A stretch of 64,000 nt of DNA from Chloroflexota bacterium (GTDB lineage: Bacteria > Chloroflexota > Anaerolineae > Anaerolineales > Villigracilaceae), in assembly GCA_016235445.1 (NCBI GenBank), contig JACRLB010000018.1:1-64000 (forward strand), read 5' to 3'. The position numbers were made by a program, and so were the translations under genes. Positions 21,118 through 27,302 of this stretch are shown here, piece by piece. Position 1 is the stretch's first letter, and each line of letters starts with the position of its first letter. The notes below the pieces were generated by a model that saw nothing but the letters and a program-made list of their open reading frames with translations, did not search any database and was not told where the DNA came from.

Positions 21118-21236
21118 GATGCAGGTATACAGGTATACAGGTATACAGGTATACAGGTACACAAGAATACAAGTACATATGTTTACGTGTTTACGTGTCT
21201 ACATGTTTCCGTGTCTACCTGTCTACATGTTTCCGT
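21118..21236. repeat. Tandem decamer repeat with an inverted second half
   Basis: Four-plus copies of the decamer CAGGTATACA (about 21122-21160) run into degenerate copies, then into units in the opposite sense (TTTACGTG, TCTACATG, TCTACCTG) up to the mdh stop. The halves can pair imperfectly as a long hairpin. The unit is itself near-palindromic (GTATAC). It fills the gap between mdh and gltA. Confidence 0.85.
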
Positions 21237-22394: not shown

Positions 22395-23336
22395 TTAACT
22401 GGGAACTGCTTCTGCTTCTTCGAGGAATCTCGTCGCCTGAATGGCGGCGGCGGCGCCCATGCCCGCGGATGTGATCACCTGCCTGAAATGCGGGTCGGCG
22501 ATCTCACCCGCCGCGTAGACGCCTTCGACGCTGGTTTCCATTTTGTCGTTGACGATGACGTAGCCGAGGTCGCTCATCTCGACCTGACCTTTGAAGATTT
22601 GTGAGTTTGGCGAGTGACCGATAAAGATGAACAAGCCATCGGTATCAAAGGTGGATTCTTCGCCCGTTTGAAGGTTCTTTAATTTCAAGGCGGTGAGCTT
22701 GTCTGTGCCGACAACTTCGGTGACGACGGTGTTCAAGATGAAATTCATCCTGGGGTGTTCTTTGGCGCGGTTCTGTAAAATTGCACCTGCGCGGAATTCT
22801 TCACGGCGATGAATGAGCGTGACGGAGGAAGCATAGCGGGTGATGAAAAGCGCCTCTTCGAATGCGCTGTCGCCGCCGCCCACCACGACGACTTTTTTAT
22901 CTTTGAAGAACCAGCCGTCACAAGTGGCGCAGTAGGAAACGCCGCGGCCTGTGAGTTCGACTTCGCCGGGGACTTCCAAATGAAGCGGGTTCGCGCCCGT
23001 GGTGAGGATGAGGGTTTCGGCTTTGTATTCGCCGCTGTCGGTCTTTACGGTGTATGGCCGCTGGGACAAATCCACTTCGTTCGCCAGATCAAATTCAACC
23101 TTCGCGCCGAAGTGCTCGGCCTGCTTTTGGAACAACTCACCCAACTGCGCCCCACCCACACCTTCGGGGAAGCCTGGGTAGTTTTCGATCAAGTGGGTCA
23201 ACGCGGCCTGGCCGCCCAATTGCATCCCCGTCAAAACAACGGGTTCGAGTTCTGCGCGCGCGGCGTACAAAGCCGCCGCCAGCCCCGCCGGTCCCGACCC
23301 CAAAATTAATACCTTTACATTTTTCTCGTTGGACAT
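22395..23336 (-). CDS. trxB: Thioredoxin reductase
   Basis: A flavoprotein that uses NADPH to reduce thioredoxin. FAD-binding GSGPAGLAAALYAARA at the N-terminus, redox pair in CATCDGWFF, the NADPH fold VVVVGGGDSAFEEALF with HRREEFRAG, and the C-terminal FAD motif VEGVYAAGEIADPHFRQV. I place the start at the ATG at 23336 (GGAAG 8 nt upstream); an ATG at 23357 has a poorly spaced site. It is a single gene here; no thioredoxin gene is adjacent. Confidence 0.93.
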   Translation of the reverse strand: MSNEKNVKVLILGSGPAGLAAALYAARAELEPVVLTGMQLGGQAALTHLIENYPGFPEGVGGAQLGELFQKQAEHFGAKVEFDLANEVDLSQRPYTVKTDSGEYKAETLILTTGANPLHLEVPGEVELTGRGVSYCATCDGWFFKDKKVVVVGGGDSAFEEALFITRYASSVTLIHRREEFRAGAILQNRAKEHPRMNFILNTVVTEVVGTDKLTALKLKNLQTGEESTFDTDGLFIFIGHSPNSQIFKGQVEMSDLGYVIVNDKMETSVEGVYAAGEIADPHFRQVITSAGMGAAAAIQATRFLEEAEAVPS

Positions 23337-23463
23337 GGATTCATCTTCCTTAGGCATTCCGCCTGTGATTTATTTTCAACTATAGTCAGGACGCTTCTTT
23401 GAGGCTTGTTATTACCGTTTCGCATTGTATCAGATGCTTACAGAGGTGAAAAGTTACAGGCTG

Positions 23464-23537: not shown

Positions 23538-23591
23538 TCCACAATCTCTGGCGGGATCGTCCATATTTCCTCCACAATTGAACAGTACATT
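23538..23591 (+). promoter_or_regulatory. Triple TCCACAAT operator and -10 box, site 1
   Basis: Three direct repeats, TCCACAAT at 23538, TCCATATT at 23560 and TCCACAAT at 23571 (steps of 22 and 11 bp), end 7 nt before TACATT (23586-23591), which lies where a -10 box belongs. The same arrangement with the same spacings precedes the gene at 24754. Eleven-bp direct repeats that replace the -35 fit OmpR/PhoB-type activators, and such a regulator is encoded at 25341. Confidence 0.8.
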
Positions 23592-23621
23592 TGAGTAAAC
23601 TTATTCGAGGAGAAAAAATCC

Positions 23622-24587
23622 ATGAAAGCTGTTGTGTATCGTTCCTATGGGGCGCCGGATGTGCTGAAGATCGAAGAGGTTGAAAAGCCCGCAGTCACGG
23701 AGAATGGCGTGCTGGTTCGTGTGTACGCATCTTCGGTCAACCCTGCCGAGTGGTACAGCATGGCCGGTTTGTTAATTGCCCGTGCATCGAGCGGTTTGTT
23801 CACGCCTAAAGACCCCCGCCTTGGAGCAGACTTTGCCGGCACGGTGGAAGCAGTGGGAAACCAGGTGACTGATTTTAAACCCGGCGATGAAGTGTACGGC
23901 GGGAGAAGCGGAGCGTTTGCCGAGTATGTCAATGTCATCAATGCGGTGACGCGCAAACCTGCAAATATCTCCTTTGAACAGGCGGCGGCAGTCCCCACAG
24001 CGGCGATCACCGCACTGCAAGGACTGCGCGACCAGGGAAAGATTCAAGCTGGGCAGAAAGTCCTCATCAACGGCGCGGCAGGCGGCGTGGGCACGTTTGC
24101 CGTGCAAATCGCCAAAGCCTTTGGCGCAGAGGTGACTGGTGTATGCAGTACCAAAAACGTGGATCTGATCCGTTCACTTGGGGCTGACCATGTCATTGAC
24201 TACACAAAGGAAGATTTTACACAAAGCGGACAGCGCTACGACGTGCTGTTCGATATTGCCGGAGGCCGAACCTGGAAGGAATACAAGCGCGTGCTGTCGC
24301 CTACTGCGAATTTCGTCATCGTTGGCGGGCCCAAGAGCAATCTAGTACTCGGCCCACTGAGCCATATTCTAAAAATCAAATTGACAGCCTTCGGCGCAAG
24401 CCAAAAGGTTTCTTTCTTCATCGCAAAATTCACCCGTGAAGACCTTGCAATACTACGGGACATGATCGAAGCTGGTACAGTAAAACCCGTCGTTGACCGA
24501 ACCTACCCGCTCAACGAAACCGCTGATGCAATGCGCTATTTAGGGACAGGCCACGCAAAGGCAAAGATCGTGTTGAAGATTCGGTAG
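23622..24587 (+). CDS. Quinone-oxidoreductase-like MDR enzyme
   Basis: A 321-residue zinc-free medium-chain reductase of the QOR type. N-terminal GroES-like part (MKAVVYRSYGAPDVLKIEEV, VNPAEW, LGADFAGTVEAVG, PGDEVYG) and a Rossmann part with NGAAGGVGTFAVQIAKAFGA. No Cys/His zinc ligands are present. Family members reduce quinones or activated double bonds with NADPH. AGGAG precedes the ATG. Its promoter has the triple TCCACAAT box shared with the adjacent two-component operon, so it is probably a target of that regulator. Confidence 0.9.
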   Translation: MKAVVYRSYGAPDVLKIEEVEKPAVTENGVLVRVYASSVNPAEWYSMAGLLIARASSGLFTPKDPRLGADFAGTVEAVGNQVTDFKPGDEVYGGRSGAFAEYVNVINAVTRKPANISFEQAAAVPTAAITALQGLRDQGKIQAGQKVLINGAAGGVGTFAVQIAKAFGAEVTGVCSTKNVDLIRSLGADHVIDYTKEDFTQSGQRYDVLFDIAGGRTWKEYKRVLSPTANFVIVGGPKSNLVLGPLSHILKIKLTAFGASQKVSFFIAKFTREDLAILRDMIEAGTVKPVVDRTYPLNETADAMRYLGTGHAKAKIVLKIR

Positions 24588-24651
24588 GCCAGGTGGGTGG
24601 TCCCGTAGACAACAGACCACTGTCCAATTCCAACACTTTGCTTACACAACC

Positions 24652-24705
24652 TCCACAATCTCTCGCCCACCCATCCACAATTCCTCCACAATGGATTGAT
24701 ACATT
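24652..24705 (+). promoter_or_regulatory. Triple TCCACAAT operator and -10 box, site 2
   Basis: Perfect TCCACAAT copies at 24652, 24674 and 24685 (steps 22 and 11) precede TACATT at 24700-24705 by 7 nt, exactly as at site 1. It heads the operon for the membrane protein, the OmpR-type regulator and the kinase, so autoregulation is likely. Confidence 0.85.
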
Positions 24706-24753
24706 TGGGGTGTAAGAACGAACTAAATCAATTCAATCTATTGGAGATAAAAA

Positions 24754-25230
24754 ATGAAAAAAGGTCCATTTATTTTGTTTCGCGTCCTCGGTCTTTTGCT
24801 CTTTATCGGGCTGATCGTTGGCGCAGGGGCGTTCAGCTTCAAAGCTGGAGAAGCCCGCGGAATCATGCAGGCTCCCGAAGTTGCCGCCGCCATTGAAAAA
24901 GCCGCCGAAGACGGACAAGCCGTCCCGCCGATGTATGGCTACGGTCATCCCTACGGGTATGGCTATGGGATGCGCGGATATGGTCATCACTTTGGCTTCT
25001 TCCCGTTCGGCGCCATCTGCGGCTCCATCTTCTTCCTGTTCTTCTTCTTCGGCTTCATGAAAATGATGTTCTTCCGCAGAATGCGTCACGGCGGTCATCA
25101 CATGCACGGCCCGTGGGGTAAAGGCTGGGAAGGCGGTCCCTCATCCATGTTCAATGAAATGCACAAGCGCGCGCATGGTGAACAACCCGCCGAAGACAAA
25201 GCTGACGGCGAAGCAGACAAAAAAGAATAA
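24754..25230 (+). CDS. His/Gly/Tyr-rich membrane protein, 158 aa
   Basis: Residues 8-30 form a first transmembrane helix, followed by an outward segment (EARGIMQAPEVAAAIEKAAEDG), a GY-repeat stretch (MYGYGHPYGYGYGMRGYGHH), a second very hydrophobic helix (about 84-104, AICGSIFFLFFFFGFMKMMF) and a His/Met-rich cytoplasmic or second outer tail (RRMRHGGHHMHGPWG) ending in acidic/Lys residues. I know no named family. The His/Met-rich parts suggest metal or envelope-stress sensing. It is the first gene of the autoregulated operon with the regulator at 25341 and the kinase at 26056. Confidence 0.75.
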   Translation: MKKGPFILFRVLGLLLFIGLIVGAGAFSFKAGEARGIMQAPEVAAAIEKAAEDGQAVPPMYGYGHPYGYGYGMRGYGHHFGFFPFGAICGSIFFLFFFFGFMKMMFFRRMRHGGHHMHGPWGKGWEGGPSSMFNEMHKRAHGEQPAEDKADGEADKKE

Positions 25231-25328
25231 GCTGCATTAAACGAAAGAAGAAAGAGGAAAGAAACCGTTGGTTGCGCCTCTTTCTTCTTTCGTCTTTCTT
25301 CATCCTTCATAATTCATCCCTCATCCTT

Positions 25329-25334
25329 TATACT
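25329..25334 (+). promoter_or_regulatory. -10 box for a leaderless regulator transcript
   Basis: TATACT at 25329-25334 ends 6 nt before the ATG of the OmpR-type regulator gene, and no Shine-Dalgarno sequence lies between. This is a secondary promoter inside the operon. Confidence 0.5.
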
Positions 25335-25340
25335 CTCCCC

Positions 25341-26018
25341 ATGCCAGAACTAATCCTCGTAGTTGATGATGAACCCAAGATCGCCCGCCTCGCGCGGGAT
25401 TATTTGGAAAAGAACGGCTATCGCGTCCTCACCGCAGGCGACGGTCAATCCGCGCTGACAACTGCCCGCCGCGAAAAGCCCGACCTCATCGTCCTCGACC
25501 TGATGCTCCCCAACATTGACGGGCGCGAAGTCTGCAAAATTCTGCGCCGCGAAAGTGACGTGCCCATCATCATGCTGACAGCATTAGCCGAAGAAGTCGA
25601 TCAGGTCACTGGCCTTGAGATCGGCGCGGATGATTACATCACCAAGCCGTTTTCCCCGCGCGCGCTTGTCGCTCGTGTGCGCGCCTTGCTTCGCCGCGCC
25701 AAAGGCGAGATCAAAGCGCCGTCCATCATTCGCATTGGCGGGCTGGAGATCGATACAGAAAAATACTCGGTCACATTCAACGGGACACCCATCAAACTCA
25801 CGCCAAACGAATTCAAATTGCTTTTCATCCTCGCCAGCCGCCCAGGCCAAACCCTCACCCGCGAGCAACTGCTCGAAGACCTGCACGGAGCCGCATCCAG
25901 CATAGACCGCAGTGTGGATTCACACATCAAGAATCTCCGCAAAAAACTCGAAGCCGAATCAGGCAGTCCATCCATTGAAACCGTCTATGGCATTGGCTAT
26001 CGCTTCATGGAAAGGTAA
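25341..26018 (+). CDS. OmpR/PhoB-family response regulator
   Basis: The 225-residue regulator has a receiver domain (acidic pair in LVVDDEPKIARLA, phospho-acceptor Asp in LIVLDLMLPNIDG, Lys in DYITKPF) and an OmpR winged helix (ITPNEFKLL-like LTPNEFKLLFILASRPGQ, ending SIETVYGIGYRFMER). Start ATG at 25341 has no ribosome-binding site but a TATACT just upstream; the longer upstream frame reads through a repeat-like leader. The kinase gene follows 37 nt later. The 11-bp direct repeats at 23538-23578 and 24652-24692 are its likely targets. Confidence 0.93.
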   Translation: MPELILVVDDEPKIARLARDYLEKNGYRVLTAGDGQSALTTARREKPDLIVLDLMLPNIDGREVCKILRRESDVPIIMLTALAEEVDQVTGLEIGADDYITKPFSPRALVARVRALLRRAKGEIKAPSIIRIGGLEIDTEKYSVTFNGTPIKLTPNEFKLLFILASRPGQTLTREQLLEDLHGAASSIDRSVDSHIKNLRKKLEAESGSPSIETVYGIGYRFMER

Positions 26019-26055: not shown

Positions 26056-27129
26056 ATGTCCCATCGCCCTCCCCCCCACTTTCCACCGCATCGCTTTCAA
26101 CGTCGCTGGCGCGGCGGCAGTCGTCGGTTTTTCCCGTTTGCATTTTTCTTCTTCGGCACCATAATGCTTTTTACTGGCGGCACTGCCGCCATTCTGTATT
26201 GGGTCTTTTCGGAATACGCCGGGGTCAGAAATATATGGCTTCTTCTGTGCGGCGCGCCGGTCGCTGTGGTCATCCTCGCGATCATCACCATCATCACTTT
26301 ATATAATCGTTTCGGCAAACCGATGGGGCAGATCTTCAACGCCATAGACTCCGTCGCTGAGGGCAACTTATCTGCGCGTGTGCCAGAAAACAATTCAGAC
26401 ATGTTCAGCGAGTTATTCAAACGCTTCAACAAAATGGTCAGCGAACTGGAGCGTTCCGACCAACAGCGCCGCAATCTAACTTCAGACATCGCCCACGAAC
26501 TACGAACTCCACTGCACATCATCCAGGGCAATCTCGAAGGTGTGATTGACGGCGTCTACGAAGCGACACCCGAACACATCAACAACACATTGGATGAGAC
26601 CAAACTGCTCGCACGACTCGTGAATGACTTGCAGACTCTGTCACTTGCGGAGGCGGGACAACTTCCGCTTCACCCCACCCGCTTCCTGCTCGCTGACCTG
26701 ATGCATGATCTCGCCGCCAGCTTTTCCTCCCAGGCCGCGTCTGATGGAGTTGATCTGCAAACGCATGTCAGCGACCCAGCCCAAGAAATCACCGCCGATT
26801 ACGACAGGCTCAATCAAGTCCTGTCCAATTTGATATCCAACGCACTGCGGCACACATCCAGCGGCGGGAAAATTTCACTCGAAACAGAATCAATTGTCGG
26901 CGGGGAAAGAGGCGTGCGGATCAAGGTCAATGATACAGGCACGGGAATTGCATCCGATGATCTACCATTTATCTTTGACCGATTCTGGCGCGGCGATAAA
27001 TCGCGCAGTGGGCGGGCGAACAGTGGGCTGGGTCTTGCGATTGCAAAGCAATTAATTCAGGCGCATGGCGGGACGATTGAAGCGCAAAGTGAAGTGGGCA
27101 AAGGCACGGTGTTTGTAATTGAGTTGTAG
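26056..27129 (+). CDS. Sensor histidine kinase (BaeS/CpxA-like)
   Basis: The 357-residue kinase starts with a His/Pro/Arg-rich cytoplasmic tail (about 1-23), two transmembrane helices (about 24-48 and 58-82) with a short loop, a HAMP domain (about 85-135), HisKA with His in LTSDIAHELRTPLHIIQ, and HATPase (N box NLISNALRH, NDTGTGI, FDRFWRGDK, NSGLGLAIA). The extracellular part is almost absent, so it may sense the membrane or the partner protein at 24754. Its TAG stop lies inside a 28-bp perfect palindrome (27126-27153). A diverged copy of its catalytic region follows at 27164-27258. Confidence 0.93.
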   Translation: MSHRPPPHFPPHRFQRRWRGGSRRFFPFAFFFFGTIMLFTGGTAAILYWVFSEYAGVRNIWLLLCGAPVAVVILAIITIITLYNRFGKPMGQIFNAIDSVAEGNLSARVPENNSDMFSELFKRFNKMVSELERSDQQRRNLTSDIAHELRTPLHIIQGNLEGVIDGVYEATPEHINNTLDETKLLARLVNDLQTLSLAEAGQLPLHPTRFLLADLMHDLAASFSSQAASDGVDLQTHVSDPAQEITADYDRLNQVLSNLISNALRHTSSGGKISLETESIVGGERGVRIKVNDTGTGIASDDLPFIFDRFWRGDKSRSGRANSGLGLAIAKQLIQAHGGTIEAQSEVGKGTVFVIEL

Positions 27130-27286: not shown

Positions 27287-27302
27287 GGTAGAATTGCCGC
27301 CA

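Follow-up and report, generated by a model that had tools for sequence, protein, structure and literature searches.

The window analysed here is a stretch of 64,000 nucleotides from contig JACRLB010000018.1 of a Chloroflexota bacterium (order Anaerolineales). The part of interest carries a compact series of genes. A Pyr_redox_2 reductase (22395-23357), which we take to be thioredoxin-reductase-like, lies on the strand opposite to an MDR-family, quinone-oxidoreductase-like oxidoreductase (23622..24587, forward strand, domains ADH_N and ADH_zinc_N), which scores below the NCBIfam PIG3 cut-off. Four more features follow on the forward strand: a small membrane protein (24754..25230) with two predicted helices (6-24 and 80-98), rich in Gly and Tyr and in His, and with no match in Pfam or NCBIfam; a terminator-like 17-bp hairpin (25241..25293, -29.2 kcal/mol, z -5.4); an OmpR-family response regulator (25341..26018); and a histidine kinase (26056..27129) with HAMP, HisKA and HATPase_c domains, two predicted helices and a short external loop. 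The next gene, at 27294, we take for uvrC. A simple terminator scan missed the hairpin, whose 19-nt loop exceeds the scan's loop limit of 8, and three sub-threshold Rfam matches on and around it were set aside as chance. Further upstream, 8-bp and 24-bp tandem repeats occupy 21122-21236, between citrate-synthase-like and malate-dehydrogenase-like genes; a repeat at another locus (L107) has a similar translation. The malate dehydrogenase of this genome is closest to PDB 1guy, the Chloroflexus enzyme, in keeping with a place in the Anaerolineae.

Two arrays of boxes, both on the forward strand, precede the oxidoreductase and the membrane protein. Array A (23538..23578) consists of TCCACAAT at 23538-23545, TCCATATT at 23560-23567 and TCCACAAT at 23571-23578, and array B (24652..24692) of TCCACAAT at 24652, 24674 and 24685. 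The initial annotation described six exact boxes in identical spacing, each 7 nt before a TACATT hexamer. The spacing is indeed exact, with steps of 22 and 11 bp in both arrays; five of the six boxes (23538, 23571, 24652, 24674 and 24685) are exact and the one at 23560 is not; and the distance of 7 nt holds for the third box of each array, not for the others. The position of the 11-bp phase that the longer step passes over is occupied by a degenerate sequence, TGGCGGGA (23549-23556) in array A and TCGCCCAC (24663-24670) in array B. The presumed -10 hexamers TACATT lie at 23586..23591 for the oxidoreductase and at 24700-24705 for the membrane protein, the latter preceded by TGn, which makes a presumed extended -10 (24697..24705). 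The leader of the membrane-protein gene (24706-24753) looks conserved in many relatives, in the form of a GTAAGAACAAA...AATCAATC...TTGGAGGTAAAAATG-like sequence, seemingly beyond what a bare ribosome site would call for.

The window has 10 copies of the box TCCACAAT, where shuffles give an expectation of 2.45, and the exact triple occurs once in the genome (4.13 Mb, 55 contigs), its reversed control giving none. A genome scan for phased boxes, suggested in the initial annotation, was made with the pattern TCCAYAAT-14-TCCAYAWT-3-TCCAYAAT and up to three mismatches: it returns two sites, arrays A and B, and none for the reversed control. The same two arrays are the best genome matches (E 1.1e-20 and 2.6e-15) of R1, a sequence-only position model built from 37 arrays, these two among them. 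The third-best match of R1 in this genome (C49:20257-20304, E 1.3e-4) lies upstream of an ABC exporter, and the fourth (C14:79633-79662, E 0.0076) upstream of a membrane-fusion-like protein. The usual targets of E. coli BaeR include efflux genes, and we regard these two as weak candidate members of the regulon.

The response regulator matches PF00072 (1.1e-32) and PF00486 (1.4e-23), both above cut-off, and is thus an OmpR/PhoB-type response regulator. Among proteins of solved structure, E. coli BaeR (PDB 4b09, E 5e-58) is the nearest to it, with 107 of 225 aligned residues identical, followed by MtrA and RegX3. The BaeR equivalog NF007982 is its best match among all NCBIfam models, but the score of 240.3 bits is below the cut-off of 380. 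For the kinase, the closest NCBIfam models are BaeS_SmeS (216 bits) and BaeS, and the BaeS cut-offs are again missed, with 216 of 500 and 207 of 603 bits (NF012163 and NF007837). The predicted helices of the kinase lie at 25-43 and 62-80, as compared to 13-31 and 168-186 in BaeS, so that hydropathy gives it about 18 external residues versus about 136 in BaeS: the external sensor domain of BaeS is absent from it. Because the BaeR and BaeS cut-offs are not reached and this domain is lacking, the pair is filed here as a putative BaeR-like variant rather than as a member of BaeSR.

The likeness to BaeR includes the part that would read DNA. The recognition helix is DRSVDSHIKNLRKKLE in the regulator and DRTIDSHIKNLRRKLE in BaeR, and the core DSHIKNLR is identical over its eight letters. 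The motif DSH[IV]KN[LV]R is found in 30 of the 31 complete orthologue rows, in all eight of the more distant regulators linked to arrays, and in one of the 26 other OmpR-family regulators read in these genomes (L232, for which no array is known). Four rows call for a remark: L025 is frame-shifted in the helix, L101 and L094 end before it, and L104 comes from the same genome as L024. At one locus (L119), a weak array match stands beside a regulator with DVHIRNLR. In a tree of 49 rows, comprising 43 regulators and 6 references, the array-linked regulators form three groups, which the tree neither joins to one another nor unites with BaeR in one clade; BaeR itself sits on a branch of length 1.77 near the window's group, not firmly joined to it, a placement that is weakly supported.

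We now turn to the relatives of this bacterium. An orthologue of the regulator (78-100% identity, one of them frame-shifted) is present in 24 of 41 genomes, that is, 40 relatives and the genome itself, and one more genome (G013) has a 90% fragment of it. Around the 23 orthologues of relatives there are 29 arrays with at most four mismatches over the three boxes, at 19 of the 23 loci. Each of the 29 precedes a gene, with 12-121 nt from the third box to the start: a membrane protein 16 times, an oxidoreductase 6 times, a DUF4386 protein 4 times and a rhodanese 3 times. The DUF4386 and rhodanese names have Pfam support for the three proteins tested and are otherwise given by likeness, and the gene behind the array L050:6278 was identified as a membrane protein by tblastn. 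An array stands upstream of all 16 membrane-protein genes whose upstream DNA was examined; the orthologous loci where homologues of the oxidoreductase lack one directly upstream number at least six (L036, L037, L038, L040, L042 and L047). At the four loci that have no array (L037, L048, L054 and L055), the contigs break off near the two-component system. One orthologue (L057, G015:C49:73996-74601) is frame-shifted inside the recognition helix, either by assembly error or by decay.

The initial annotation would take absence of the boxes from orthologous promoters as a refutation. The opposite was found: arrays occur in orthologous promoters within the genus and beyond, and they follow the regulator. 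With the array pattern at up to two mismatches, 41 matches (the two of the window included) are spread over 23 of the 41 genomes, the reversed control yields none, and a few of the matches stand away from the regulator. Arrays are present in 23 of the 25 genomes that have an orthologue or fragment, versus none of the 16 that have neither; the two exceptions (G019 and G034) have an orthologue and no array by this pattern. A wider sample, 201 genomes from the order with a completeness of 90% or more, was searched with R1 at E 1e-5 and with the regulator at E 1e-85, some of the arrays used to train R1 coming from these same genomes: R1 matches 47, the regulator 53, and both 43, so that arrays are found in 43 of 53 genomes with the regulator versus 4 of 148 without it. 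The Fisher p-values for the two samples, 1.5e-9 and 1.9e-29, overstate the association, since the genomes are related and not independent. The four genomes with an array alone are G104, G467, G482 and G546. Among the ten genomes of the order that have a regulator and no array, eight carry homologues of 63-67%; in the other two, G034 and G569, the gene is carried by a short contig or lies at the edge of one.

Of the 39 arrays collected, 37 were kept for alignment (L034 and L056:6658 were left out), and these align gap-free from the first box through the presumed -10. Counted from the first base of the -10, they have their boxes at -48, -26 and -15. In all 37, T1, C3, A4 and A6 of the first box are invariant, and so are T1, A2 and T6 of the -10 hexamer, which is preceded in most of them by the TGn of an extended -10. 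Position 5 is C in the first box, once T, and C or T in later boxes; because this position (C/T) and position 7 (A/T) vary, an exact search for TCCACAAT in the first 31 loci misses many arrays. At the vacant position of the 11-bp phase (-37), T1 never varies and C4 hardly does. The four half-sites at 11-bp phase give room over the -35 place for two predicted head-to-tail dimers. The layout of a PhoB-type class II promoter, with predicted activator sites over the -35 in fixed register to the presumed -10, is thus common to the 37 arrays; the earlier proposal of an 11-bp direct repeat that replaces the -35, with activation of OmpR/PhoB type, fits on every testable point, binding itself being a prediction.

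The compact regulon proposed in the initial annotation holds with one correction: the membrane-protein and oxidoreductase promoters carry arrays, but the regulator and kinase are not directly under one. The regulator has a promoter-like site of its own, TTCATA-17-TATACT (25306..25334, forward strand, by consensus match only), which ends 6 nt before the ATG. A -10-like hexamer stands 6-8 nt before the ATG in 21 of the 23 orthologues read (L019, which has no start, is outside the 23), so the mRNA of the regulator is probably leaderless. The hairpin at 25241-25293 is a possible terminator or attenuator and may halt much of the read-through into the regulator. Because of the leaderless-type promoter and the hairpin, it is likely that the regulator and kinase of this genome are expressed at a basal level and are not driven by an array.

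For BaeR itself, PMC3799227 gives two forms of the box, TTTTTCTCCATDATTGGC (from Nishino 2005) and TCTNCANAA (from Yamamoto 2008), and PMC3915751 repeats TTTTTCTCCATDATTGGC; a term search of PMC4107485 finds no box. According to two other papers, spy and mdtA are BaeR targets bound in ChIP-exo in E. coli (PMC7657598), and a near-consensus BaeR site lies upstream of bamK (PMC13059784). The half-site TCCAYAAT contains the TCCATAAT of TTTTTCTCCATDATTGGC, with the following GG one base closer, and in this agrees with the published box. The spy promoter of E. coli K-12 carries TCCATCAA, TTCTTTTT and TCCATAAT at -48, -37 and -26 from a presumed -10 TACACT, with nothing box-like at -15, and the mdtA promoter has TTCATAAT, TCCATTTT and CCCTTATT at -37, -26 and -15, again from a presumed TACACT.

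The model R1, which was built from arrays of this order only, was also applied to eight enterobacterial genomes at E 10. It gives 14 matches, of which five are at spy (in Enterobacter, Cedecea, Leclercia, Raoultella and Klebsiella, where tblastn shows 76-81% identity to the Spy of E. coli) and one at mdtA (in Leclercia); these six are weak, with E 0.12-2.75, and what counts is their location. The remaining eight are elsewhere, including the single best (L201, E 0.017). Three of the eight genomes have no spy or mdtA match, among them E. coli (G433), in which R1 finds nothing at E 10. In the four spy promoters other than that of Cedecea, the -26 box is exact and the -37 box has one mismatch, both in register; all spy promoters read have a degenerate -15 box, and in Cedecea the boxes do not keep the register to the hexamer chosen. 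The Leclercia mdtA promoter has its -37 and -26 boxes in register. The register to the presumed -10 is thus common to spy and mdtA of E. coli and to five of the six matched enterobacterial promoters. Two of the matches, L201 in Leclercia and L213 in Raoultella, lie upstream of stretches that resemble each other and include a CRP-like site; this may be a BaeR target that has not been listed.

When R1 is run on 15 kb of E. coli K-12, its best match is the mdtA promoter (E 0.0068, through an insert of 11 nt that amounts to one extra box), and the spy box comes second (E 0.33). With the two-box part of the matrix, the upstream region of E. coli mdtA scores above all of 15,538 enterobacterial background windows, and 0.06% of these windows score as high as E. 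coli spy, the background loci being homologous to one another and hence not independent. Permuted matrices do equally well on spy in 11 of 200 trials and on mdtA in 5 of 200, a weak control with a small background.

At E 0.01, R1 matches 41 of 400 genomes of the phylum. Nine of the 14 matched loci read outside the order (L106 and L108-L120) have an OmpR-family regulator within 1.5 kb on either side, and most of these nine have a gene for an exported or membrane protein between the array match and the regulator; from 3-20 regulators per genome, the chance rate in a random 3-kb stretch is estimated at about 1%. Two loci, L113 and L115, have no regulator within 1.5 kb on either side, and at three, L112, L116 and L118, the match resembles a cluster of DnaA boxes or TCCACA repeats. 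In small genomes of one group (f31, probably Dehalococcoidia-like), two boxes and a -10 stand upstream of an exported Gly-rich protein in L106, L109 and L111, each with a regulator in the locus, and upstream of the regulator itself in L120; the exported protein of L106 has a weak DUF2680 match.

We consider it very probable, on the sequence data assembled here, that the arrays are operators of the regulator at 25341, which would bind them head-to-tail at the place of the -35 and activate both promoters by means of the code used by BaeR. Sites of OmpR-family regulators look alike, and this regulator has 10 matches in the genome at E 1e-40 or better, one of them being the regulator itself, so another member of the family might bind the arrays while the neighbour is a bystander. 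We find this improbable: the arrays adjoin this orthologue and follow it across genomes, none of the 16 genomes that have other OmpR-family regulators and no orthologue has an array, and four of the nine paralogues were read and have different helices (DTHIKNLR, DVHIAHLR, DVHLGHVR and TVHVRRLR). A role in replication has even less in its favour. The DnaA box TTATCCACA includes TCCACA, and the three weak phylum-wide matches mentioned above resemble clusters of this kind; yet the window arrays have no TTA before TCCACA, their boxes all face the same way at 11-bp phase and at constant distance to the -10, and they precede the genes of one small regulon, and on these grounds DnaA boxes were rejected as hardly credible. 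The arrays are 1.1 kb apart with the same spacing, and one might be a recent copy of the other, their mutual likeness then having no functional weight. The spacers and flanks of A and B differ, however, and the relatives repeat arrays upstream of both kinds of gene, which makes a recent copy extremely unlikely.

Why the arrays resemble BaeR sites is a separate question. The likeness could reflect convergence of OmpR-family regulators with similar helices rather than shared descent with BaeR, and we give this somewhat less than an even chance. The three unjoined groups of array-linked regulators, the long branch of BaeR, the unreached BaeR and BaeS family cut-offs and a kinase architecture unlike that of BaeS all point towards convergence; on the other hand, convergence would have to account for eight identical letters in the core of the helix, a common half-site and a register to the -10 that mostly agrees, which is a great deal, and the best solved relative is BaeR.

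If the arrays are operators of the regulator, the events at this locus would most probably proceed as follows. A signal at the membrane would activate the kinase, which would phosphorylate the adjacent regulator; because the kinase has almost no external domain, we would guess that the signal arises in the membrane or is relayed by the co-regulated two-helix membrane protein. Dimers of the phosphorylated regulator would bind head-to-tail at -48, weakly at -37, and at -26 and -15 from the -10 hexamer, covering the -35 place and recruiting RNA polymerase to a partly extended -10. PhoB and BaeR are both thought to recruit RNA polymerase from the -35 place. Two strong promoters, those of the small membrane protein and of the oxidoreductase, would respond in this genome, and the leaderless promoter of the regulator would keep regulator and kinase at a basal level.

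Three known systems invite comparison. With the BaeR regulon (spy and mdtABCD-baeSR), the window's system shares the half-site (TCCATAAT there, TCCACAAT here) at 11-bp phase, the register to the presumed -10 (-48/-37/-26 for spy and -37/-26/-15 for mdtA, the boxes not all perfect), the helix DSHIKNLR, and targets of membrane or envelope type. It differs in that the targets here are a His-rich membrane protein, an oxidoreductase, a DUF4386 protein and a rhodanese, the regulator has a separate leaderless-type promoter, the gene cluster of the window has no RND pump, and the kinase is short, with almost no external loop. Pho-box promoters have the same geometry of 11-bp head-to-tail repeats that end just upstream of the -10, read by a winged helix of the OmpR family, but the pairing here is TCCAYAAT with DSHIKNLR, whereas the helix of E. 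coli PhoB is DVHIRRLR. Finally, intramembrane-sensing histidine kinases are a known class with two helices and a short external loop; the kinase of the window is similar in having two helices, with an external loop that hydropathy puts at about 18 residues, and different in that it has a HAMP domain and BaeS_SmeS and BaeS as closest models.

The type of activator and promoter is already known, and so are the BaeR sites of enterobacteria. What is new, as far as we have searched, is a regulon of this kind in this phylum, and the fact that its letters, its phase and for the most part its register are common with spy and mdtA across phyla. The literature searched, comprising titles, the starts of abstracts and few subscription papers, has no paper on such sites in Chloroflexi. 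The binding code seems, from the comparison of sites and helices, to be common to very distant bacteria. It is possible, though we would not put it at even odds, that the operator code (TCCAYAAT at 11-bp phase, at -48/-26/-15) and the helix DSHIKNLR were already fixed in an ancestor shared by Chloroflexota-like bacteria and Proteobacteria, and were then kept while the sensor, the targets and even the type of envelope changed.

Operators are usually expected to drift, and E. coli motifs are therefore rarely used to read the regulons of uncultured bacteria. The model used here, built from one group, retrieves targets already known in the other, spy and mdtA. The two systems lend themselves to asking how long the DNA code of a response regulator can last. 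The two-helix membrane protein and the near-loopless kinase together form a candidate sensor of membrane stress, and, if binding is confirmed, regulons would become predictable in this phylum, for which little genetics exists.
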